Assembly (NCBI GenBank): GCA_016185725.1
Contig: JACPNA010000050.1
Span: 1 to 36,639, forward strand
Direction of reading: 5' to 3'
Source of the DNA: Candidatus Woesearchaeota archaeon
GTDB lineage: Archaea; Nanobdellota; Nanobdellia; Woesearchaeales; GW2011-AR9
DNA: 36,639 bases
Every line of letters begins with the position of its first letter. The stretch's first letter is position 1. The position numbers were made by a program, and so were the translations under genes. This document shows, one piece after another, positions 3,603 through 24,714 of this stretch. Under the pieces are notes generated by a model, which searched no databases, was not told the origin of the DNA, and was given only the letters and a program-made list of their open reading frames with translations.

Positions 3603-4403
3603 TTATTTTTGGCATATTGGGCAGTAGAAAGTGCCACGGCCGCTTATATTTATTTTTTTAAGAGGATGTTTTTTGGGGCAGTGTGATTTTTGGTATACGG
3701 CAAGATAGTTCTGAAAATCGCCTTCTCCGTTTAAATGTTCATAATCATCTACGGATGTGCCTTTGTGTTTTATTGCTTGTAATAGGATGCGTTGAATTTC
3801 GTGATATAAGTTGGTTAATTTTTCTGAAGGAATGTCTTGGATTTTCTTTTGGGGATTTATACCTGCATAATATAATGATTCTTGGGCGTAGATATTGCCG
3901 ATACCAGCGATGATGTTTTGGTTCATTAGCTTGGTTTTGATGTTGGCGGAGGGTGATTTTTGGAAAAGCTGTTGGAATTTATCTGCGGTGAAAGATTTAT
4001 CTAAAGGTTCTGGACCAAGAGGAGCTGTAAGTGTATTAAGTTCTGATTGGTTGAGAATATCGAATCGTTCGAAGCGGCGGATAGAGTGGAATGTTAGCAA
4101 AGAATTGTCGTTAAAATAGATTTTAGCAACGCAAAATTTTTCGTTGGTAAATTTGTCTTTGTTTTTGAAATAATGAAAATGGCCGGTTAAACGCAGGTGG
4201 ATAACAATATATTGAGAGTTGTTTAAGGCAATAATAATATATTTGGCACGACGGCACACGTTATTTATGTTTATGTTTTTGATGGTTGATGTTTTTTTAT
4301 CGACAACTTTATGGTCAAGATTTTCTATGCTTAAAATAGTTTTATGATTTATTTCTGAGTTTAATTGGTTGACGATTGTTTCTACTTCAGGTAGTTCGGG
4401 CAT
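3603..4403 (-). CDS. mutM: Formamidopyrimidine-DNA glycosylase
   Basis: 266 residues, the standard Fpg length. MPELPEVET at the N terminus supplies the catalytic Pro2 and Glu3; Lys54 lies in RRAKYI; the H2TH region has NIIAGIGNIYAQE; the C-terminal finger has GRGTFYCPICQ. It removes 8-oxoguanine and ring-opened purines from DNA and nicks the strand. The zinc finger is unusual: the first ligand pair is Cys242-x3-His246 in place of the normal C-x2-C, while Cys261 and Cys264 are intact. Fpg is chiefly bacterial, so transfer is likely. The start sits about 30 bases from a TATA box shared with the divergent gene at 4453. Confidence 0.95.
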   Translation of the reverse strand: MPELPEVETIVNQLNSEINHKTILSIENLDHKVVDKKTSTIKNININNVCRRAKYIIIALNNSQYIVIHLRLTGHFHYFKNKDKFTNEKFCVAKIYFNDNSLLTFHSIRRFERFDILNQSELNTLTAPLGPEPLDKSFTADKFQQLFQKSPSANIKTKLMNQNIIAGIGNIYAQESLYYAGINPQKKIQDIPSEKLTNLYHEIQRILLQAIKHKGTSVDDYEHLNGEGDFQNYLAVYQKSHCPKKHPLKKINISGRGTFYCPICQK

Positions 4404-4953: not shown

Positions 4954-6046
4954 TTATTTAGAATTGGAATATGGTTCAATATTCCCATTGCCTTTAAAGT
5001 CGCCAAGATTACCTTGCCAGTCAAAATGCATGTAATCTTTTGCATCGGAAAAATCACCACCCCAGCGAAAGTCGTTAGCTTTGAATATTTGAATTATTTC
5101 TTCGGGCAGGTCATAATATTTGCCGTTATATTTTTTACATTCTACTTCGATGCCTTCTTTTGTTTTGTAATAATTGGTGCCATCTGGACGGACTAAACAG
5201 AAGGGATTGGTAGAAGGATTGATGTCAATAGCTAAACCATAACTATGTTTACTGCGTTGTACTATGCCTTTATTATCTAAACAAGTAGTTTTATCTACAA
5301 TATTAACTTTAGGAGAATTGACACAGCGCCAGGTATAAGGCGTGCCTAATTTTAGTTTATAATTTAGATTTTCGGTTTTGATCTCTTGGTCAATTTTTTT
5401 TAGTAAGGGAATGATTACTTTATTTACTTTGATATTATTGCCTTGAAAGGTTAATGAGCCTATTTTAGAATCAGCTGTTTGTTCGGAGGTGGATAAAACT
5501 TGGGGAAAGCATTTACTGGTGCCGGAATATTTAGGAAGAGAAGGGGAGATTAATTGAGCTTGATGCGGTGGTTCATAAACTTCGGCAAAGATTTTCCATT
5601 GTGCTGGCGAAATTTGTGTGTCCAATATTTGGTTAATGTTATTACCTACGTGAGTGCTTATTTTAAAAGCCCAGACTTCATCAATCTCTTTACAGGTTTG
5701 AGAATTAAGACAAGTATAAATAGATGGTTTATCTGGAAGTGATTTTGTGGCGGTATCAAGTCAAAGAAAACCGACCACCACCAGTCAATAGACTGTGGTG
5801 GTCGGTTTTCTGACCATGCTTTTTCCACTTTAAGTGTTAGTGGATGTGTACCACCAGTGAAACACACTGGTGGAAAAAGCATATTTTAGCGGCGCTACTT
5901 TCTCTTGAGGGTGTTATCTGCGGAGTAACTTCTTCCATTGCGGTGATAGGTTCTTCTTCAGGATGTTCTTCTTCTAGAGCGGAGGAGAAGAGGGATAAAG
6001 TTATTATTAAAATTAAAAAGATAAAAAATAGATGATTTAATTTCAT
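4954..6046 (-). pseudogene. Secreted M15 (VanY/D-Ala-D-Ala-type) peptidase, split by a repeat
   Basis: The 5' part (6046 to about 5889) encodes a signal peptide and an acidic linker. The 3' part (from 5757) encodes a Cys-containing module (LNSQTCKEIDEVWA) and an M15 domain with the zinc/catalytic motifs SKHSYGLAIDIN (H-x6-D) and DYMHFDW. Between them lies a 130-bp element that brings stop codons into both frames. Deleting exactly 5759-5888 joins the frames into one 320-codon gene, so this was a signal-bearing peptidase that has been interrupted. M15 enzymes cleave D-Ala or L-Ala-D-Glu bonds of murein stem peptides. As it stands, the catalytic part could only be made from an internal codon such as TTG at 5625 and would lack export. 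It is the last gene of the 15931-4954 operon, 12 bases after the lysozyme-like gene. Confidence 0.85.
5759..5888 (+). mobile_element. Palindromic element, copy A (130 bp, short form)
   Basis: Runs from (A)GTCAAAGAAAACCG to GCATATTTTA. The left half folds as a long hairpin (AAAACCGACCACCAC with its complement, loop around CAGTCAATAGACT). The right half folds as ATGCTTTTTCCAC with GTGGAAAAAGCAT enclosing CCACCAGTG/CACTGGTGG. It splits the M15 gene, and its removal restores the frame with no target duplication. Confidence 0.85.
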
Positions 6047-6058
6047 TTTTGTTAAGAA

Positions 6059-7498
6059 TTATTTGTTCTTTTGAATTTCGTAACATTTAAGGAATTGATT
6101 AGTTAAATCATTATTATTTTTATAGGGTTGACCGTAGTAACTTTTTCCACCTTTGGAACTGCTCGGCAGAGATGCCCAAGTAGGTGCTAATCTATCCCAA
6201 AGAGGAATAAAATCTTTGGAAGAAATAGCATTTTTTATATCACTTTCAGAAACTCCTTTTTCTGTTATTAATGAAAGACCGGCTTTGTCTTGCGCTTCTT
6301 TGCCAAAATTAGGAAATAATCCTTTTTTCTTTAAATTATTATAGGTGGTACAGGTAAATTGATATCTACCAGAGGCACTGGGATTTAATTTTTGTTTTTC
6401 ACAAGGATGAACACTTAAATCTTCAAATCTTTTTCCACCATACAGTACATTATAATCTCCACCCTCAGCCCAGGCAATTGTATCGAGTAAGGCATTGTAT
6501 TCAGGACTGCCAACGTTAGCAATACCACAATAACTAATTTTAGTTGTAGAAGCAACATAAGTATCGACGGTGGCTTGCACTGATTTTGGTTCGGTGTATA
6601 ATGTTGTATAAGGTACCCAGCCGCCAGGAACGGCATAGACTTTATCACTTAAATCCGGATTGACATATGCACTGATACGAGAAGCCCAAGCTTCGTCAAT
6701 TTCTTTACATTGTTGAGAGTTGAGACAAAGCGGTTGAGTAATTTTTGTAGTAGTTGAAGGGGTTGAGGAGATGGTAGAAATTGATACGGCAGCAGCGGGA
6801 GTTGCAGAAGCAGTTCCTCGCAAGGCAGCGGTGTAGATATCACCCATTATACCGTATTTCAATCCTGGACTTATTTCGTCGTATACTTTTTGGGCCCATT
6901 GTGTTGGACGGGTATTATCACTAAAATGTATTTCATCTTTATTTAGTTTTACTTTATCCCGTGAATCTATTAATATACAATTATTACTAAGTCCTTTAAT
7001 TATAGCTTCATAACGTTGATCACGTTGAGCTGCTTCAGTTGGATCATTTTTACCGGGCGGACCAATCCAATAACATTTAATGTTTTGATCAATTATGATT
7101 TTCACTAAAGAAGCCACATTTTTATCATAATTTGAAGGTGTTTTTCCAGCAGGATTACCTCCCATAGTAATTATAACGATCGTCGGTTGGAAATCAGAAA
7201 TTAAATCGGCAAGTTTTGGTGTTTTAGACAATGTTGATGTTTTTCCTGTTTCAGTGATATATAAAGAGCCACAACTATCAGCCTGGTTATTAAACCACCA
7301 GGAAGGTGAAGCACCACACATAGCATAATGGCGAACAGTATTATCTTTACTAAGCAATTTATTGATTTCTGTGCCATAAGTGCCAACACTATGAGAATCA
7401 CCAATAAATAAAATCTTTTCTGCAAGTGCTGAGGAGGATAAAAGTAGAATAAATATTAAAATGAAAATTCTTTTTGTTAATTGGCGATTAAATTTCAT
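6059..7498 (-). CDS. Secreted SGNH hydrolase fused to a lambda-endolysin-like (GH104) lytic transglycosylase
   Basis: 479 residues. Residues 1-26 are a signal peptide. An SGNH esterase domain (about 28-215) shows block I GDSHSVG (Ser35), block III GGN (Asn115) and block V D-x2-H (Asp188, His191). A Ser/Thr/Ala/Pro linker (about 222-255) leads to a Cys module (LCLNSQQCKEIDEAW, about 257-320) shared with the next gene. The C-terminal domain (about 330-475) follows phage lambda R closely in motif order: LLDTIAWAEGGD (catalytic Glu345), YGGKRFEDLSVHP, LNPSASGRYQF, WASLP and YGQ. GH104 enzymes cleave the MurNAc-GlcNAc bond of bacterial murein. An esterase that removes O-acetyl groups, which block such enzymes, would fit the fusion, but that is inference. 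It sits between a pilin-like gene (11 bases) and the M15 peptidase gene (12 bases). Confidence 0.88.
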   Translation of the reverse strand: MKFNRQLTKRIFILIFILLLSSSALAEKILFIGDSHSVGTYGTEINKLLSKDNTVRHYAMCGASPSWWFNNQADSCGSLYITETGKTSTLSKTPKLADLISDFQPTIVIITMGGNPAGKTPSNYDKNVASLVKIIIDQNIKCYWIGPPGKNDPTEAAQRDQRYEAIIKGLSNNCILIDSRDKVKLNKDEIHFSDNTRPTQWAQKVYDEISPGLKYGIMGDIYTAALRGTASATPAAAVSISTISSTPSTTTKITQPLCLNSQQCKEIDEAWASRISAYVNPDLSDKVYAVPGGWVPYTTLYTEPKSVQATVDTYVASTTKISYCGIANVGSPEYNALLDTIAWAEGGDYNVLYGGKRFEDLSVHPCEKQKLNPSASGRYQFTCTTYNNLKKKGLFPNFGKEAQDKAGLSLITEKGVSESDIKNAISSKDFIPLWDRLAPTWASLPSSSKGGKSYYGQPYKNNNDLTNQFLKCYEIQKNK

Positions 7499-7509
7499 TA
7501 TTCATCGAT

Positions 7510-8061
7510 TTATTTTACTATGAATGTTTTGGTGTACGTTACTTGTTTTATTAAATAGGGATTTTCTAAGATTAAGTCTAAACTATAAGTTCCGGGTTGT
7601 AAACCAAAGCCAAGAGTGAAGTAGTCTTTGAATACTAGAGATTCTTTGTTTTTATTTGATTCGGTGTCATAATCAAAATTGTTTTCAGTATTAGCATCAA
7701 GAATAATTTGACCAGATGGGGAAGTAATACGATAATTTTCTACTATCTTTACTACTCCGTTAGATGTTGTTGATTCGACAACGAAACGGAAATGGACTTC
7801 TTCACCTCTTACGAAAGTTTGTTTTGGTTCAAGGCATTGATATTGTTCGTCAACGTATTGACAGAATTGAAATTCTTTAATAGATAAAGTTCCTTCACGG
7901 GCGAAGGGGATAAATTCAGTGTTTAAGATAGGCTGCGGTGAAGTGTCGGCTTTAACAGTTACAACACCTTTCTGTACCAAGAAAAGAATGACTGCACTGG
8001 TAAGAACTACGGCTACTAAGATCAAAAGGAATTCTATGATGGTTGAGGCTTTTTTGTTCAT
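7510..8061 (-). CDS. Pilin-like secreted protein with class III-type N terminus
   Basis: 183 residues from the ATG at 8061. It begins MNKKASTIIEFLLILVAVV, a short basic leader followed directly by a hydrophobic helix with Glu, as in archaeal class III (prepilin-peptidase-processed) signal peptides. The exterior domain has three Cys and a beta-rich, Ig-like character with a conserved-looking end (QPGTYSLDLILENP). The start was chosen because the ATG lies two bases after the stop of the 1970-residue gene (TAA-AA-ATG) and places the hydrophobic helix at the N terminus; an upstream in-frame start at 8130 would bury it. It could be a minor pilin or an anchor for the neighbouring enzymes. Confidence 0.75.
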   Translation of the reverse strand: MNKKASTIIEFLLILVAVVLTSAVILFLVQKGVVTVKADTSPQPILNTEFIPFAREGTLSIKEFQFCQYVDEQYQCLEPKQTFVRGEEVHFRFVVESTTSNGVVKIVENYRITSPSGQIILDANTENNFDYDTESNKNKESLVFKDYFTLGFGLQPGTYSLDLILENPYLIKQVTYTKTFIVK

Positions 8062-8063
8062 TT

Positions 8064-11000
8064 TTATTCTATGAATATTGTTTGTTCTATTTCTTCTGTG
8101 GGTGGACAACATAATTGACCCGATGGACATTGATATTTTGATTGATATTGAGAGGAATCAAAACAAAAGCTATTATATTGAAATTTTCCACTATCATCTT
8201 TAGCAATCTTATCAGCTAAAACTGGAGTTTGACAAGTATATTGATTCCACTTTGCGGGAGGAGTGTTTTGATCAGTATAATCTGAAGGAGGAACGGTAAA
8301 AATAAATTTGGCAGAAGGATCGCCACATTTTTTTCCTAGAGTAGAAGTTGAAGGAGTTCCGGCTTTAGGTTCGCAGCATTTTTGCGTTCCAGGACAGCCG
8401 TTTTGCAGGTTATATTGATTAGCAATAGTTTTCGTAGAGTAATCTGAAGCATCATAGCATATTGAACTTGTGTCCGGCTCACGACAGACATATTTATTCC
8501 AGTTAGCAGGTTCGATAAAATCTTCTACTATATGTGTAGATCCACACGTTGTTCCTTTACCAGTTCCTAATGAGGTTGAAGATATTGGTGTAATGCCCTC
8601 ACACTTTATTTTATTATTTATCTGCGCTAGATATTGGTAAATCTTTTGATATTCTGCGGTATTGGTTATTTTTTCAGGATATGGTTCACGAATTTCTCCG
8701 GTAACGTATTTATTATTAAAAAATATATTTAAGTAATTGCAAATGGGTTGTTTGTATTGTGTTGTCCATTCATATTGACCTTGCATGATGTAACAAGCGA
8801 TGGCATAGTATAATGCGTTAGCATCGGCGATGTCATTCGCACGGCGGTTGATGAGTTGTTGAGCTTCGCCTAACACATAACCGCAATTGCCGAGCATAAA
8901 TTCGGAATGGAATTTGCTGGTTATTTTAGAGGCAAATGGTTCTAATTGTAAAGTAATAGTCTGGGTATGTTTATTTTTACCGTAAGCAGGAGATTTTACG
9001 GGAATGTAGGCATTGAAACAATCGCCAGAAGCGTCTGGTTGTAATAGTTCGTTAGTTATTGTAATTGACTTAACTCCCTGAACTTGTGAGGATGCAGGAA
9101 CGATTTCATAAGTACATGCTTTTTTAGGATTATTTTGCGGAAGTTTTGGTGAGCCAATTAAGTTGTAAACAGTAAATCCTTCGAATTGGAAACGGACCGT
9201 AGATAATTCTCCGGTTGTAAGAAATGGATTGCCGTTAGATGTCAAGATTTGATTGGTAACTTGGAAGGGAGGCATTGCGGTAACACCGCTAGGTAAAGTT
9301 ATTTTATATTTACCTTCAGAATCCAATTCATAACTGAAGGGATATTTATTTTTGGTCTGCACTCCAGCAGGAGAATTTTCATAGAGGATATTATTACTAC
9401 AACCAGGATCACTTTCAGAAGAAAGTCTAACGGAATTCTCTCCAGAGAATAGGGAAGGTGTAACTGTACCGAGATTAAGTGGAATGGTGAGAGGACCGCT
9501 TAATTCGGGTAAAGGACGAGGAGTTAATTGACTAAATGTATCTTTTAAGCCAGCAATAGTTGTTTTTAAACAATATTTTTTACCATCAGTCATTAAATGA
9601 TTATTGACACGGATAGGACGATCTTTGATAAATAAATTAGGTGTATTACAATCAGACCAAGCTTTAGTTGTTTCGTCCCAACAACTCAGGTAAGGGTCTT
9701 CAAAATAAGCACCGCCGCCGCCAAACAAGGCTAAGACTTCTGGACATAAGAAGCGACCAGTCAGCGGTTCAACCTGACAAGATAATTGCTGTTCGGGAGA
9801 GACGTCAGTAATAGGGAAATAAAATTTGCCGTCACGATACCCTTCATCAAAACAAGTTTCGGCTTTTTCATAGGGATCTAATTTTATGTCGACGACAACA
9901 TGATCGTAGCGATAGCTAGAACTTATACGTTGCGGGGCAGGGATTTTCATGTCGACAAAATCGCCGCCTTTAAGATTGAATTTTCGACCGTTGTCGAGGA
10001 ATTTGGTTTTTTCTTGTTCAACAGCACTTTTTTGTGTGGCATGCAGGCAATCACAACCTTGCGGACCACACTCTATTCCTTTATGACCCATGTCTTCTGG
10101 ACCGATACATTTTAAATAAACGTCAGCGCTACGGATACGACAGCCAGGCATTAAGATGGCGCCGATTTTGTAATTGTATACTGCAGTTCCGGCGGTAGGA
10201 TTATACGTTGATAATTCACGCTGCGCAGGTACGACAATAACATCAGTTTTTGTGGAAAAGGAATTGGCGGTGTCCATAATGAAATCCATGCCGATAGGCC
10301 AATCGTAACCAAAGGCAGCCATACAAATGGATTGAGAAACTCCTTGCGATCCTTGAGCAAAGTATTGATTTAATTTTGCATTTTGGTAATCTGATTGTAC
10401 TGTCTTTATGGATGATTGCATGGCTTGAGGAATGGCTGCAAAACCGGATTTGGCAATAACGCCGATGTCTTCAATGGTTGTTCCTTTAAGTTCATCTTGA
10501 AAATTATCTGTACTACAACCATTATTAAAATATGCTAATGATTGATAAATCAAACCACAAACGTGTTGAGAGAATATTGTTTTACAAACACCGACATCTT
10601 GCAAGCCAGTATATTTTGCTTCTTTAATACAATTACTTAAGCCAACTAAAATATTTCTCAACGTTACTAAACGAGCATTTATACCAGTAAGACAAACCGT
10701 TTGGAACGCACCGGTATGTTGAGTATTAGGATTGATTTCGTGATAGGTTTTATTGTCGGAAAACGCATCGAGGATAGAGTTCTGACCAAAGGCTGAAGAA
10801 AAATCACGATTGTTATAATAACGCCATTCGGGATAATAAGTGCCAAAGACACCTTTACTTTCTCTGAATTTTAGTGATTCACGGTAGTCCCAATCTTCAG
10901 CTAGATTGTCAATTTCTTTTTGAGCAGTACGCGCTCCAAGAATTTTAGTGGTTGGTTTACTATCGGTAATACAGACGCATTGTAAGAAACCAGTGGTGCG

Positions 11001-13976
11001 GGAGGCTTCATCCAATCCTTTTGGTTCTCCTTCGGAATCTAAATCAAGGAAACAGTCAGCGGTATAACCAGCAGATTTACGAACGGGACCTTTTTGTTCA
11101 TCACTTTTTATTGGACCATTTTTACCTTGAATAATTATTTTACCAGAAGCATCTAGTTGTTCACGATAGCATCCATATTTGCCGGAAGCAGGAGTAGAAG
11201 CGCCTTCTGGTTTAAAATTATTAGTTGTTCCACCATCTTTATCGGCTTTATATCCCGGTAATTTAGGATTTTTACAGACTGCTTCACAGCTACGATCTTG
11301 ACCGACAATAAAACTTTCTGAACCTTCAGGCTGATATGCAAATAAATCTCCCGAGCCGGCAAATTTTTCTTGTAGTGCTTCAAGAGTTATACCAAATTGT
11401 TCAACTTGATTTAATTTGATGAGAGGAGATTCTTTATTTTGTTGTTTAGAATCGATAACATAAAGTTTATTTTGATATTGATAGCAATCAAAAGAACCAT
11501 TTTTTAAGACTTCTACGGCAATTTGATTTTGATTAGTGCCTTTTTGGATTAAGGTTTGACAATTTTCACGTTTAGTTAAGGGAATGCCTAAACTGGTAAC
11601 CGCACATTGTTGTTGGGCAGAGGCAACTGCGCCGACTTCTTCTTGTGTTTTAGATGCAGTCCAACGAGCAGGAACTTTACGACAAAGGAAACGATCACAG
11701 GAGTAGCGGTAAAGTTGGTCGATTCCAGATTCAATCTGCCAAGCGTTAGCGGTTAACGGGCAGCGTTCATTTAAAGAGCTGGCTTTAAGATTTTTAGGGT
11801 CAATTTTATATTTAATAATAGGATTGTTGGTATTATCAAAATAATTTGATTTGTCAGCTAACACTTGCCATTTTTGGATAGTGCTGTCTAAAAATAGATT
11901 TTGTTGTTCTACTATAGAAGGACATCTGTCTTCCTTTTTTTTAGTAAGATCTTTAGCACCATAGTAGGATTCTACATTAGAGATAAAGAGGCGATACCAT
12001 TTAACAATTGTCTGCACGCCAATAGAGGATAAACATGTTGCACCAGCAATTTTTATAGCAGTTTCTAAATAGGGTTGAATTGTCTCAATTTGTTTAATTG
12101 TGAAATCAATTGATTTTAAACCTTCGTCGGCAATGAAATCGGGAAGCATATTTTTACTGTCTATAGGTATATCCACAAAATAGCCAAGGTCATAACAAGA
12201 AGTTTGAGATTTCATCGGACCAAGATTGCCGTTAGGATCACGTTCTTGATAATCTACACGAATCTTTAAGGGAAACATGATTTGGCGTTTTTTGAACTCG
12301 TTCCAAAAGTCTTCTTTTGTTTCGCTTAATTTTTGCGAGGCGGCAAGATTAGAGGTTACATACCAAGACGTTTTTTCACCATTAGGAATGGTTTTAAGGC
12401 TCGCTGGTAAAATGTTACAACCAATTTTAAAAGAGTTATCTTTGAGCATGCCTTGAGTACAAGCACGTTCGAACTGTACACCTTGAATAAGATAACCAGA
12501 TTCGAGAACATGACCAGTAGCAAGATCAATTTTAGGAGTGCCTTGACCACGATAACTAAAGTTAAAAACAGCAGTAGCAACTTCTCGACCGGAATCAAGC
12601 AATTGCGGATTTAAACGCAACGGAGCCTGAAATTGGGGAATAGATGAAATTTGGAAATCAAAATTAGGAGAGTAACAAGTATTAATGGTAATGGTAGTTT
12701 GCTGGAAACCTTTACGACCTAATTGATCTTCGGCAACTATAAATAGATAATAAGTCCATTGCTGCTGCTGTTCGGCTTGTTCTAAAGGAAAGATGGAAAT
12801 TTGTTCCATACCCGCAGGAACTAATTTGAAATTAGGATTGATTTGTTTGAAAGGTTCGCTATCAAAGTTAATGTCTTTAAATGTAAATTCGCCTTTACTA
12901 TCAGAAGTTGTTTCCGCCCACGCTTTATCAAACTTAGGAGTGTATTGGAAACCAACTTGACGGTATAAAAAGAAGTATAATTTGGTGTTAGGTTTAGTTT
13001 TACCGCTAATAGAAGACTCAGCACGGCCTTGATAATAACTATTGCCTTTTTCTAAATTGAAAGTTACAACAGGTGCTTGGACATCAGCAGTCATAGTAAA
13101 TTCTTTGGTAATAACAAAGCCGGAAGTATCTTGGACGGTAATGACAATATTATTTTTTCCTTCTTGTAAATTAATAAGATGAGATATTTTTTGGCCTTGG
13201 CCTTTGGCTTGAGATTTATTGTTGACAAAAATTTCGTAAGTGCTATTTTTAGTGATAGTACCATTAATTGGGAAACTATTGCTGTCAGTAATAGTAGGTA
13301 ATGCGGTTAAATTAAGTATAGGGAGATTATTGTCGGAATAAATGGCGCCAGTCCAGACAGCTTTGTTGTCAGCGGTATCAAGAGCTTCTATTTTTAGATA
13401 ATTTTGTTTATTTGGCTCTAGAAAAATATCGGGAAAGATAAAATGAGATAAGGATGCAGAGACGTTATTTTTGATTTCCTGATGGGGAGCAGTGATAGTT
13501 GATTTAGAGATGTTGTTAACAAATAAAGTTAATTTTGTTTTGGGTTCGGTTGTGCCATTAAGGGATACTTTAGTTCCGGCTATGGAAGAGGGAGCAGAGA
13601 CTTGTAAGGGAGGAGGATTAGTGTCAGGAGTAATGGTTTGGAAAGTATAGAAAGAACCATTATTGTCAGAAATTTTGGAATTACTTTCAACTTGGTAATA
13701 ATATGTTGTTTTAGGAGTTAAATCCTCAAGAGTGAATTGATGGGAGGTGATAGGATTAGCATCGCCTATTGTTTGCAAGGAAGATTTATTTGCGCCGTAA
13801 TGTAAAAAGCTATCAGATGGTTCGTCAGTATTCCAAGAAACAGTGGCAGAAGTTTCAGTTATATCTGTAGATTGCACGGAGGATATTTCTAAAGCGCTTA
13901 CGAAGGTTAAATTAACTAAGAGGGAGATAATTAGGATTGATAATAATTTATTGATGGGGGTTATTTTTGATTTCAT
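8064..13976 (-). CDS. 1970-residue secreted multidomain protein (FN3, Ig-like, Cys-rich repeats)
   Basis: A signal peptide (about 1-28) is followed by a fibronectin type III domain (about 30-115, with TSATVSWNTDEPS and TTYYYQVES) and several bacterial Ig-like segments with the NGTTEPKTKLTLFVN pattern (about 125-310). The long middle part is rich in Cys and aromatic residues and has no family I recognise. The last 130 or so residues hold two copies of a Cys motif ending CPGTQKCCEP and CPSGQLCCPP. The many paired Cys point to an extracellular, disulfide-bonded protein. The start overlaps the stop of the upstream gene by four bases (ATGA). Its place between two pilin-like genes and ahead of two murein hydrolases suggests a large adhesin or the body of a surface structure. 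Confidence 0.8.
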   Translation of the reverse strand: MKSKITPINKLLSILIISLLVNLTFVSALEISSVQSTDITETSATVSWNTDEPSDSFLHYGANKSSLQTIGDANPITSHQFTLEDLTPKTTYYYQVESNSKISDNNGSFYTFQTITPDTNPPPLQVSAPSSIAGTKVSLNGTTEPKTKLTLFVNNISKSTITAPHQEIKNNVSASLSHFIFPDIFLEPNKQNYLKIEALDTADNKAVWTGAIYSDNNLPILNLTALPTITDSNSFPINGTITKNSTYEIFVNNKSQAKGQGQKISHLINLQEGKNNIVITVQDTSGFVITKEFTMTADVQAPVVTFNLEKGNSYYQGRAESSISGKTKPNTKLYFFLYRQVGFQYTPKFDKAWAETTSDSKGEFTFKDINFDSEPFKQINPNFKLVPAGMEQISIFPLEQAEQQQQWTYYLFIVAEDQLGRKGFQQTTITINTCYSPNFDFQISSIPQFQAPLRLNPQLLDSGREVATAVFNFSYRGQGTPKIDLATGHVLESGYLIQGVQFERACTQGMLKDNSFKIGCNILPASLKTIPNGEKTSWYVTSNLAASQKLSETKEDFWNEFKKRQIMFPLKIRVDYQERDPNGNLGPMKSQTSCYDLGYFVDIPIDSKNMLPDFIADEGLKSIDFTIKQIETIQPYLETAIKIAGATCLSSIGVQTIVKWYRLFISNVESYYGAKDLTKKKEDRCPSIVEQQNLFLDSTIQKWQVLADKSNYFDNTNNPIIKYKIDPKNLKASSLNERCPLTANAWQIESGIDQLYRYSCDRFLCRKVPARWTASKTQEEVGAVASAQQQCAVTSLGIPLTKRENCQTLIQKGTNQNQIAVEVLKNGSFDCYQYQNKLYVIDSKQQNKESPLIKLNQVEQFGITLEALQEKFAGSGDLFAYQPEGSESFIVGQDRSCEAVCKNPKLPGYKADKDGGTTNNFKPEGASTPASGKYGCYREQLDASGKIIIQGKNGPIKSDEQKGPVRKSAGYTADCFLDLDSEGEPKGLDEASRTTGFLQCVCITDSKPTTKILGARTAQKEIDNLAEDWDYRESLKFRESKGVFGTYYPEWRYYNNRDFSSAFGQNSILDAFSDNKTYHEINPNTQHTGAFQTVCLTGINARLVTLRNILVGLSNCIKEAKYTGLQDVGVCKTIFSQHVCGLIYQSLAYFNNGCSTDNFQDELKGTTIEDIGVIAKSGFAAIPQAMQSSIKTVQSDYQNAKLNQYFAQGSQGVSQSICMAAFGYDWPIGMDFIMDTANSFSTKTDVIVVPAQRELSTYNPTAGTAVYNYKIGAILMPGCRIRSADVYLKCIGPEDMGHKGIECGPQGCDCLHATQKSAVEQEKTKFLDNGRKFNLKGGDFVDMKIPAPQRISSSYRYDHVVVDIKLDPYEKAETCFDEGYRDGKFYFPITDVSPEQQLSCQVEPLTGRFLCPEVLALFGGGGAYFEDPYLSCWDETTKAWSDCNTPNLFIKDRPIRVNNHLMTDGKKYCLKTTIAGLKDTFSQLTPRPLPELSGPLTIPLNLGTVTPSLFSGENSVRLSSESDPGCSNNILYENSPAGVQTKNKYPFSYELDSEGKYKITLPSGVTAMPPFQVTNQILTSNGNPFLTTGELSTVRFQFEGFTVYNLIGSPKLPQNNPKKACTYEIVPASSQVQGVKSITITNELLQPDASGDCFNAYIPVKSPAYGKNKHTQTITLQLEPFASKITSKFHSEFMLGNCGYVLGEAQQLINRRANDIADANALYYAIACYIMQGQYEWTTQYKQPICNYLNIFFNNKYVTGEIREPYPEKITNTAEYQKIYQYLAQINNKIKCEGITPISSTSLGTGKGTTCGSTHIVEDFIEPANWNKYVCREPDTSSICYDASDYSTKTIANQYNLQNGCPGTQKCCEPKAGTPSTSTLGKKCGDPSAKFIFTVPPSDYTDQNTPPAKWNQYTCQTPVLADKIAKDDSGKFQYNSFCFDSSQYQSKYQCPSGQLCCPPTEEIEQTIFIE

Positions 13977-15931
13977 TTTATCTCCGGATCAGGTAGAGAG
14001 GTACTTATTTGAGGCAGGGATAACATTAGACCATAAACTACATTCTCATCACTGGAATCGGTAGAAGCGATATGGAAAGTTATCTGGTTAGCTTGAGATA
14101 AATCTGACCAGGGTAAGGTCCATTTGCCTTTATACCCACCAATGAATTTTTCTTGGTCAAAGGCATTGATTTCTAATTCATAGGTGTAATCAGCTTTTGC
14201 AAGCAAAGACAGGGTTTGGAATTCTTGCAGTTCTTTATCCGTAGGAGAATATAACAATGTTGCTTCGTGGAACGGTTGAGTGGTGTTGGATTTAAATATG
14301 CGTAATTTTATAAGAGCGGTTTCTGTTTTGGATAGTTCTTTTGGTGGTCCAATATTTTGTTCTGATTCGTAATTGTGTTTAACTATTTTTAGTTTAGATG
14401 CGGGTAAATGGTATACTGGAATTAAATTTAGCTCTGTTTCTTTATTTGATTCGGTAATGACACGCTGCCAGGATTCTTTATAATCTTGTTTTACACCGCG
14501 TAAAATACCGCCAACACAATAAGGAAAGTTAGTAGTTATTTTAGAAGATGCGGTGTAGGGATTGAACGAAGTTTGACCGAGATCGCATTTGTAACGTAGG
14601 CAAGTATAAGAAATGTTTACTCCGGAAATTTCTTCACGATTGAATACACCTAAATCGTTTTCTATTAATTCGTATGTTTTGACAGTCATGGGAATCCGTT
14701 TGTTAGCACAAAATTCTTCAGAGTCAATAGTCTCAATAGCGAGAGATGGACGAGAAAATATTTCATTACGATTAGGATTGTTCTTTATGATATGAACAGT
14801 GAAGGCAAGATTGAAATTGTAGCCGGTAGTTTCATCACGAATTCTAGCTAAAACAGGATATGATAGATCGTACGTAAATTTCCAGTTTTGCAAGCATAAA
14901 AAGGAAATCTGATCCGTACCACCAAGCATAGAACTTTGTAGTTTTGTTCCGGATAAAGGAGTAACGGCAAAGGTAAAGGGATAGTTTTCTTCATAGTTGA
15001 AATAAACGTTAATTTTGTTGTTGTTACCATTTTCACCAATATCCCAAAGGTAGTGACTTTTATAGTAAGGAAGAGTTTTGGGATATTCAATAATATTGGT
15101 GCCTTTAAGCTGGATTTGGGGGATATTGGTGTGAATTAATTTTTTTAAGGAAGATTGAACTTGGAAAATATCCCAGGTTTTTTTGGTGCAACTTAACTCC
15201 ATGCCGGCAGTGGGAACGTCGGGGTGTTCTAAAGCTAAAAGGTCTTGGGTAATATCTTCAAATTTTAGAGTAGCCATCTCTCGATCAATGATTAAAGCAG
15301 CTAATTCGTGAACTTGTTTTAGTTTTATATCAGATTCAGCTTGATGATCAATAACTTCCGCAATGGTTTCACCGGCTTTGTTTTTTAATTCAATATCCCA
15401 TCTGACGTTAAGGATTACTTTAGCAGCAGTAATTTCGGTGTTTGGTTCAATTTCACTTTTTTCTATAATATCATACGATTCTTGGAATGGTTGTAAATCT
15501 AAAAGACAGGAACGCAAGTTCTGTTTCATATAATTGTCTATTCTTGTTTTGATATCTTGTAAAGAGGGTATTCGTGTTTGTTGACCGTAAGCCCAATAAG
15601 GAACTACGAGGTTAGGAGAAAGACGTAAATTTTGTGAAGCATCATGGGCAATATCAGAAGGAATGTCAATGTAACCACCTTGCAGACCTATTTTGAATAA
15701 AGCTTCTTCACCAATCTGTTCAATGCAGGTGGTGAGGTAGTTTTCTATTTTACCTTTTTCAGTTGGAATTATTTCTTCGGTCTTAAAACGAAATATTTCT
15801 GTTTGGAAAAGCAAGAGTAAAGATATGGCTAACAAAATTATTATTCCTAGAATTATAAAAATAGTTACTTGAGCTTTTTTGTTGCTGAAAATATAGCTAG
15901 TGTTACAGCTATCTACCCTCTTTTTGTTCAT
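13973..15931 (-). CDS. Membrane-anchored surface protein with KKAQVTIF-type N terminus (652 aa)
   Basis: The N terminus has a short charged leader, then NKKAQVTIFIILGIIILLA, the class III-like signal/helix common in secreted DPANN proteins (RGQVTIFIILG type). The remaining 600 residues are predicted to lie outside the cell and are beta-rich with scattered Cys; no enzymatic motif is visible. It is the first gene of a five-gene operon: the TATA box at 15951-15962 is about 25 bases from the ATG, which fits a leaderless start, and the stop overlaps the next start by four bases. Candidate roles are a pilin-like base or a host- or prey-contact protein. Confidence 0.7.
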   Translation of the reverse strand: MNKKRVDSCNTSYIFSNKKAQVTIFIILGIIILLAISLLLLFQTEIFRFKTEEIIPTEKGKIENYLTTCIEQIGEEALFKIGLQGGYIDIPSDIAHDASQNLRLSPNLVVPYWAYGQQTRIPSLQDIKTRIDNYMKQNLRSCLLDLQPFQESYDIIEKSEIEPNTEITAAKVILNVRWDIELKNKAGETIAEVIDHQAESDIKLKQVHELAALIIDREMATLKFEDITQDLLALEHPDVPTAGMELSCTKKTWDIFQVQSSLKKLIHTNIPQIQLKGTNIIEYPKTLPYYKSHYLWDIGENGNNNKINVYFNYEENYPFTFAVTPLSGTKLQSSMLGGTDQISFLCLQNWKFTYDLSYPVLARIRDETTGYNFNLAFTVHIIKNNPNRNEIFSRPSLAIETIDSEEFCANKRIPMTVKTYELIENDLGVFNREEISGVNISYTCLRYKCDLGQTSFNPYTASSKITTNFPYCVGGILRGVKQDYKESWQRVITESNKETELNLIPVYHLPASKLKIVKHNYESEQNIGPPKELSKTETALIKLRIFKSNTTQPFHEATLLYSPTDKELQEFQTLSLLAKADYTYELEINAFDQEKFIGGYKGKWTLPWSDLSQANQITFHIASTDSSDENVVYGLMLSLPQISTSLPDPEIK

Positions 15932-23831: not shown

Positions 23832-23984
23832 ATGAAAACAAAAAACATCACATTGAAAGTAAACTCTGAACTTTATGATAAGTATAGAGAGATATGTAAG
23901 AAAGAAGGCTGGATAGTATCTCGTCAGTTTGAGAAGTGCATGGAAGCAGAGTTAGAGAAGAGGGGGCGAGAAAATGTCAAATAA
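23832..23984 (+). CDS. Ribbon-helix-helix DNA-binding protein
   Basis: 50 residues. [18 protein letters not shown] gives the RHH beta strand and first helix, and [16 protein letters not shown] the second helix, as in CopG/Arc-type regulators and antitoxins. The ATG at 23832 was preferred to a GTG at 23802 because the TATA box (ATATTTATAAG, 23788-23798) would start transcription near 23820. It overlaps the next gene by 11 bases. It could have regulated the restriction system whose remnant follows. Confidence 0.75.
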
Positions 23985-24714
23985 TGGGGCTAATCTTGGT
24001 TTTGAACAAAAGTTATGGTCTTCTGCTGATAAGCTAAGAAGCAATATGGATGCTGCTGAATATAAGCACGTTGTTTTAGGGTTGATATTCTTAAAGTATA
24101 TTTCTGATGCTTTTACTGAAGTTTATGAAAAACTGAAAAAAGAGAAAGATTCAGATCCAGAAGATGTTGATGAGTATGTTTCTCGGAGAATTTTCTTTGT
24201 TCCAAAAGTAGCAAGATGGGAAAATCTTCAAGCCAATGCCAAAAAGCCAGAGATTGGAAAATTTCTTGATGAAGCTATGGATATTATTGAAAGAGATAAT
24301 CCCTCACTCAAAGGTGTTCTTCCTAAGAATTATGCTCGTCCAGGATTGAACAAACAAAGATTAGGAGAATTAATTGATTTAATTGGCACAATTGGTTTAG
24401 GAGATAAAGAAAACAGAAGTAAAGATATTCTTGGAAGAGTCTATGAATACTTTTTAGGAGAATTTGCCTCTGCTGAAGGAAAGAAAGGCGGGCAGTTCTA
24501 TACTCCTCGTTCTATTGTAAAACTATTAACTGAGATGATTAGAAATAGTGTAACCATAGATTGGACTCAAAGAGAAAGTGTGCAAGCAGGAATGCGTTTG
24601 AAAGTCAAGAAGATTTTAAGGAGATATGGTTATCCTCCAGATAAGGAAAAGAATGCAATAGAAACAGTTTTGAAGCAAGCAGAATTAATTGCTAAAGGTT
24701 GGGTTAGTAAATAG
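23974..24714 (+). pseudogene. hsdM'-'hsdR fusion left by deletion in a type I restriction system
   Basis: 246 residues. Residues 1 to about 188 are the N-terminal part of HsdM ([65 protein letters not shown]). Just where the SAM-binding motif should follow, the protein switches at about 190-194 to the C-terminal end of HsdR ([41 protein letters not shown]). The methylase motif I, NPPF, all of HsdS and the HsdR nuclease and helicase domains are gone. The join is in frame, so a hybrid protein could be made, but without methylation or cleavage activity. A protein-binding role cannot be excluded. Flanked by inverted repeats. Confidence 0.85.

Follow-up and report, generated by a model that had tools for sequence, protein, structure and literature searches.

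In bacterial polymorphic toxin systems, a constant trafficking part is combined with exchangeable catalytic domains. Lyases of the lambda and SLT types are expected to produce 1,6-anhydroMurNAc and hence to need a free C6 hydroxyl group. O-acetylation of MurNAc at C6 inhibits lytic transglycosylases, and the esterase Ape1 of Neisseria relieves this block (PMC7083599; reviewed in PMC6174289). Ape1 also forms a complex with the lytic transglycosylase LtgA (PMC7083599), which provides a precedent for cooperation between an esterase and a transglycosylase. Among archaea, the sections of Strock et al. (2025) compared here (PMC12352652) describe peptidoglycan hydrolases that kill bacteria, with Nanoarchaeota prominent. 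The part of PMC9723730 compared here proposes, from murein transglycosylase genes, that Woesearchaeota are predators ('vampiristic' MAGs).

We analyzed a window of 36,639 nucleotides, which is a whole contig of a 1.03 Mb genome that is 97% complete. An earlier sequence-only reading had placed at positions 6059–7498 a secreted protein in which an SGNH esterase is fused to a lambda-endolysin-like domain. These coordinates were exact; the open reading frame lies on the minus strand, the plus strand being full of stop codons over the same interval, and it encodes 479 aa comprising a signal peptide, an SGNH domain, a linker, a module termed CMOD and a lambda-type lysozyme domain. The probable Sec signal peptide, read from the sequence (residues 1–26, ...SSSALA/E; 7421–7498, minus strand), is directly followed by the first strand and block I of the SGNH domain (KILFIGDSHS), and a hydrophobic N-terminal segment also opens the complete cargo relatives listed. 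The predicted signal peptide suggests that the protein is secreted. Both domain identities were borne out by sequence and profile matches, and the picture of a lambda-like lyase within one secreted protein was right as far as it went, but this protein is merely one cassette of a larger exchangeable archaeal set; the strand, the archaeal origin, the module at residues 258–304 and an adjoining M15 gene with the same module had been missed.

The lysozyme domain (residues 325–478; 6065–6526, minus strand) was delimited by sequence and profile matches. A phmmer search of the PDB with the single sequence retrieved lambda lysozyme (3d3d/1am7) over residues 335–450 with an E-value of 4e-8; E-values obtained within small local sets in this analysis are not database-wide. 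The endolysin family PHROG_90 matched the same half of the protein (E 5e-24), and a profile built from seven relatives matched 1am7/3d3d with E 2e-20. All of the motifs named earlier were present (LLDTIAWAEGGD, GGKRFEDLSVHP, LNP, SGRYQ at 376–380, WASLP at 441–445 and YGQ), and E345 (AWAEGG) aligned with the catalytic glutamate E19 of lambda (AWSEGT). With a match far above chance, the C-terminal domain is clearly predicted to be a lambda-R-type lysozyme. The C-terminal 150 residues thus have the catalytic glutamate and the motif order in common with the phage lambda R endolysin (1am7, 3d3d, PHROG_90), and the lytic transglycosylase chemistry is likely to be common as well. Unlike lambda R, the archaeal protein carries a signal peptide and is fused to SGNH and CMOD, and neither a holin nor a phage context was seen at the locus.

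For the SGNH/GDSL domain (residues 27–210; 6869–7420, minus strand), the single sequence matched Pfam Lipase_GDSL_2 with E 2.7e-6 and 28.4 bits, below the gathering score of 32.9; the cut-off was passed by the relatives L024, L026, L032, L039, L053, L058 and L068. A profile of 11 relatives (A6) matched many solved SGNH enzymes in the PDB, including PatB (4e-7) and platelet-activating-factor acetylhydrolase, and weakly matched the 4k3u/4k7j entry set (2e-5), which includes Ape of N. meningitidis (4k7j; PMC6174289). Blocks I, III and V, which had been claimed before, were all found: the catalytic serine in G33-D34-S35-H36, the oxyanion hole G113-G-N115 with Gly113 invariant in A6, and D188-E-I-H191 with the histidine invariant in A6. 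Block II was present too, its glycine being assigned by position to G62 in CGAS. These matches support the prediction that the N-terminal half is an SGNH domain with a complete catalytic signature.

The SGNH domain would most likely strip MurNAc of O-acetyl or similar groups, after which the lambda-type lysozyme would act as a lytic transglycosylase on the glycan thus exposed. In Neisseria, Ape1 and LtgA are likewise an SGNH esterase and a lytic transglycosylase acting together (PMC7083599). However, Ape1 and LtgA are separate polypeptides and belong to a bacterium remodelling its own wall, whereas here a single polypeptide with a putative esterase substrate occurs in an archaeon without detected wall-peptidoglycan synthesis. 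The proposal that the esterase helps the lyase was examined across relative loci with domain labels assigned by hand from family matches. A glycan-cleaving domain was found at 11 of the 14 loci with SGNH and at 4 of the 15 loci without it (11/3/4/11; n = 29; Fisher's test ignoring phylogeny, p = 0.009), and SGNH showed no association with peptide-cleaving domains at these loci. When phylogeny was controlled, however, the pairing of SGNH with a lyase was not significant, and independent pairs were few. The tendency to co-occur agrees, indirectly, with a role of the SGNH domain as an Ape1-like partner of the lyase.

Alternatively, the SGNH domain might act on another ester (lipid, teichoic acid or capsule) or serve as an O-acetyltransferase, its fusion to the lyase being incidental. 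SGNH folds take many substrates, the best match of the SGNH profile to a natural enzyme in the PDB was PatB, a transferase, and three loci (L028, L039 and L066) encode SGNH without a recognised glycan lyase. However, apart from the co-occurrence above, SGNH was retained where the lyase type was swapped: the window and its congener (L022, G084) both have SGNH (43.5% identity) and CMOD, and in the congener an SLT domain with no detectable similarity takes the place of the lambda-type lysozyme. In addition, searches of this genome found neither MBOAT (PF03062) nor AT3 (PF01757), the same searches being positive in 3 and 10 of 14 control genomes, respectively. Because neither acyl-donor partner was found, a transferase role of the PatB/OatA type is less likely. 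We therefore regard this alternative, taken as a whole, as somewhat unlikely. The fusions at these loci form a natural esterase-lyase series that could be useful for asking whether de-O-acetylation aids lytic transglycosylases. At L068 (4034–6373), the cargo consists of a polysaccharide deacetylase, SGNH and SLT, that is, two putative de-modifying enzymes and one lyase.

The producer is a Woesearchaeales-type archaeon. Relatives of the fn3 protein of the locus (described below) came from records named Candidatus Woesearchaeota, Nanoarchaeota or archaea, with one weak exception, L093. This contig, labelled as a Nitrospirae bacterium, shows 34% identity over 155 residues of the fn3 protein and either has been misbinned or belongs to a genuine relative. 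A search of the 97%-complete genome turned up no Mur ligase, and the same search was positive in 12 of 14 control genomes. The likely substrate of the enzyme is therefore not made by its producer. Since peptidoglycan synthesis went undetected in the producer, we infer that the target is bacterial peptidoglycan. An archaeon that makes no bacterial wall would accordingly encode wall cutters that resemble exchangeable tools for attacking bacteria.

Upstream of the cargo gene, three genes lie on the same strand, only a few bases apart. The first gene of the operon (13973–15931, minus strand) encodes a 652-aa protein whose N-terminus is pilin-like (KKAQVTIFIILG) and overlaps the next gene by 4 bp. 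This next gene (8064–13976, minus strand) encodes a 1970-aa secreted, Cys-rich fn3 protein, a probable surface scaffold with 37–51% identity across the family. The third (7510–8061, minus strand) encodes a pilin-like single-pass protein (MNKKAS...) with a C-terminal resemblance to Ig-like/Wzt_C domains and stops 11 bases short of the cargo gene. On the other side lies a second cargo gene (4954–6046, minus strand), encoding an M15 domain (VanY-like D,D-carboxypeptidase; Pfam M15_4, E 5e-19) with its own signal peptide and its own CMOD copy (5566–5712, minus strand). Three-frame translation showed that this gene is split over three reading frames, with at least two frame changes, which may reflect a recent pseudogene or assembly indels in MAG data; an intact relative occurs in the congener (L022:10899–12851). 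The M15 product would cut stem peptides, although the gene is broken in this copy. An Fpg/Nei-type DNA glycosylase gene (3603–4403, minus strand) forms the downstream border of the locus and is conserved in many relatives. The operon gene order recurs in the family, where the cargo slot is bordered by Fpg and, in some members, by enolase. Outside the family, L032 and L036 contain clusters of pilin-like genes followed by other putative wall-active proteins without CMOD, namely SGNH + amidase_2 + M15 at L032 and a 3D domain at L036.

CMOD (residues 258–304; 6587–6727, minus strand) was recognised by comparison of cargo proteins as a stretch shared with the M15 gene and with almost all cargo proteins of the locus, and is a previously unnamed module. 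Its pattern is C-x5-C-x2-[IL]D-x2-W, followed by a conserved W and an aromatic residue (Y); when all 34 cargo proteins are compared, W271 alone is nearly invariant. Solved structures in the PDB yielded no credible match to the module. Among 371 sampled genomes of the phylum, CMOD was confined to genes at the cargo locus and occurred in 20, comprising 20 of the 30 genomes of the own family and 0 of the 341 outside it (Fisher's test, p = 5e-26). In 19 of these 20 genomes, CMOD and the fn3 protein were encoded on one contig, with CMOD a few kb downstream; in the 20th, CMOD lay at a contig end. Similarly, 29 of the non-redundant loci had a readable cargo gene, and in 28 of these the cargo contained CMOD, L025 being the exception. 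Partial Mantel tests related CMOD distances to those of the pilin-like protein given fn3 (r = 0.38, p = 0.0004) and to those of fn3 given the pilin-like protein (0.34), so that CMOD tracks both proteins and a docking partner is not singled out. Because CMOD is confined to the operon and co-inherited with its proteins, we consider it a probable tag that docks or sorts the cargo to the surface proteins of the operon. The module could also be used as a marker for locating such loci in metagenomes.

Catalytic domains found in the cargo of relative loci include SLT, lambda-lysozyme, Phage_lysozyme2, SleB-like, M15/VanY, M23, amidase_2, DUF2272 and SGNH. A peptidoglycan-hydrolase domain was clear at about 21–22 of 29 loci, or about 26–27 when weak matches were counted, and two loci (L028 and L051) had no recognisable wall hydrolase. 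The exchange of these domains was evident between close relatives. L024 and L070 are sister loci with 67–84% identity between their operon genes and with cargo that has only CMOD in common (64% over 61 aa); the same is true of the cargo at L049 and L069, where the other operon genes are 77–86% identical. At L030 and L048, the cargo ends are retained and the middle hydrolase is swapped. When mapped with wide labels onto an fn3 protein tree of 29 tips, the states of SGNH, glycan-cleaving and peptide-cleaving domains change at least 7, 6 and 8 times, respectively. The cargo is accordingly best described as a constant CMOD joined to exchangeable domains, mostly predicted bacterial-wall hydrolases. 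The pilin-like gene at L049 and L069 differs too (35% identity), and exchange may extend to it.

A constant module with exchangeable catalytic domains in close relatives is the pattern by which polymorphic effectors are recognised, and it was found here. The locus has in common with bacterial polymorphic toxin systems a constant part, presumed to serve trafficking, together with catalytic domains replaced between close relatives. In contrast to those systems, the archaeal tag is short and internal, the apparatus bears no relation to theirs, and no obvious immunity gene was seen in the operon, nor would one be needed by a producer without the target. The locus is therefore polymorphic-effector-like by pattern, a likeness that lies in the swapping. 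As judged from their sequences, the cargo proteins are real, unusual, polymorphic-effector-like archaeal peptidoglycan hydrolases.

Compared with described archaeal systems, the locus resembles that of Strock et al. (2025) in combining predicted secreted murein hydrolases with domain shuffling. However, only proteins with a known wall-binding domain were admitted to that survey, its text mentions neither SGNH nor lambda-type enzymes, and the sections compared here contain no description of an operon-tagged cargo family (PMC12352652). The 'vampiristic' MAGs belong to the same archaeal group, and their transglycosylase genes were likewise taken as attack on bacteria; the part of that article compared here presents only GH23 and hemolysin genes, with no operon, tag or cassette pattern (PMC9723730). 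The articles searched yielded no description of the operon, of CMOD or of the fusion of SGNH to a lambda-type lysozyme.

These results lead us to favour, with more than even confidence, the explanation that the protein is a secreted peptidoglycan-attacking effector, a CMOD-tagged exchangeable cargo of a conserved surface operon, with a bacterial target. The effector would be secreted by a Woesearchaeales-type archaeon as a member of the cargo family at the end of the operon, and CMOD, as the constant part, would dock or sort the cargo to the surface proteins. The locus supplies the study of DPANN attack on bacteria with testable parts, namely a tag that can be recognised, a scaffold that is conserved and a set of enzymes that are swapped. 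A broader proposal is more tentative, and we hold it with somewhat less than even confidence: a single Woesearchaeales-type family would carry a dedicated surface apparatus, inherited vertically, its last gene would be a polymorphic-effector slot, and CMOD would dock swappable wall-degrading cassettes used against bacteria. The cassettes in this slot would be SGNH-lambda-lysozyme, SGNH-SLT, deacetylase-SGNH-SLT, amidase, M15, M23 and others, exchanged among close relatives as bacterial targets change, which might be of benefit to the producer. In this view the locus would be an archaeal system for attacking walled bacteria.

The operon might instead build a contact structure for attachment or entry, with the hydrolases thinning the wall of a bacterial host for nutrient uptake by an episymbiont and no killing involved. 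The large Cys-rich fn3 protein and the pilin-like proteins, the conserved surface genes adjoining a variable cargo, and a small genome (1.03 Mb) of a size typical of symbionts all fit this idea. However, the lineage has no known bacterial host, and the T2SSF platform protein (PF00482) was not found in this genome, the control search being positive in 13 of 14 genomes, which makes a canonical pilus unlikely; for a T2SSE-type ATPase there was one partial match. On the same ground, we rejected the idea that the pilin-like genes specify a type IV pilus. Attachment or entry differs from the effector explanation mainly in outcome, and we judge it unlikely.

The enzymes might also serve nutrient scavenging, as fast-changing extracellular enzymes that degrade murein and other polymers to feed on dead bacteria (acetate, amino sugars and peptides) and spare living cells. 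The cargo includes, in addition to polysaccharide deacetylase, the accessory domains metallophosphoesterase, EEP, FGE-like and DUF218, of which the last four fit general polymer breakdown, and the compared part of PMC9723730 proposes that Woesearchaeota recycle cell material. Scavenging, however, needs no single locus, single tag or whole-gene cassette exchange between close relatives, and cassette exchange at one locus is a pattern better known from conflict systems. Scavenging thus appears to be quite unlikely. Finally, a prophage or mobile-element gene, that is, an endolysin captured from phage without a cellular role, is hardly credible: the lysozyme domain is like phage endolysins (PHROG_90) and 412 phage records match, but none covers 80% of the 479-aa protein, cellular genes flank the locus, the operon is syntenic across the family, and the lambda domain is one of many catalytic types at the cargo site. 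A phage origin of the whole gene is contradicted, as no phage record spans it.

Several further genes were observed. Stand-alone lambda-type lysozymes occur in genus g19 of the same family (L034 1751–2446, L007 1462–2196 and L015 1495–2289), with lipoprotein-like N-termini and near a triosephosphate-isomerase-like gene. Elsewhere in the genome analyzed here, distant from the surface operon, a second lysis-type gene, without CMOD (L163 922–1983, minus strand; G000:C40), encodes 353 aa with an SLT-like match and an N-terminus resembling that of lipoproteins. Within the window, an open reading frame at 23974–24714 (plus strand; 246 aa, possibly truncated) has a start that resembles the N-terminus of HsdM, a type I restriction methylase.
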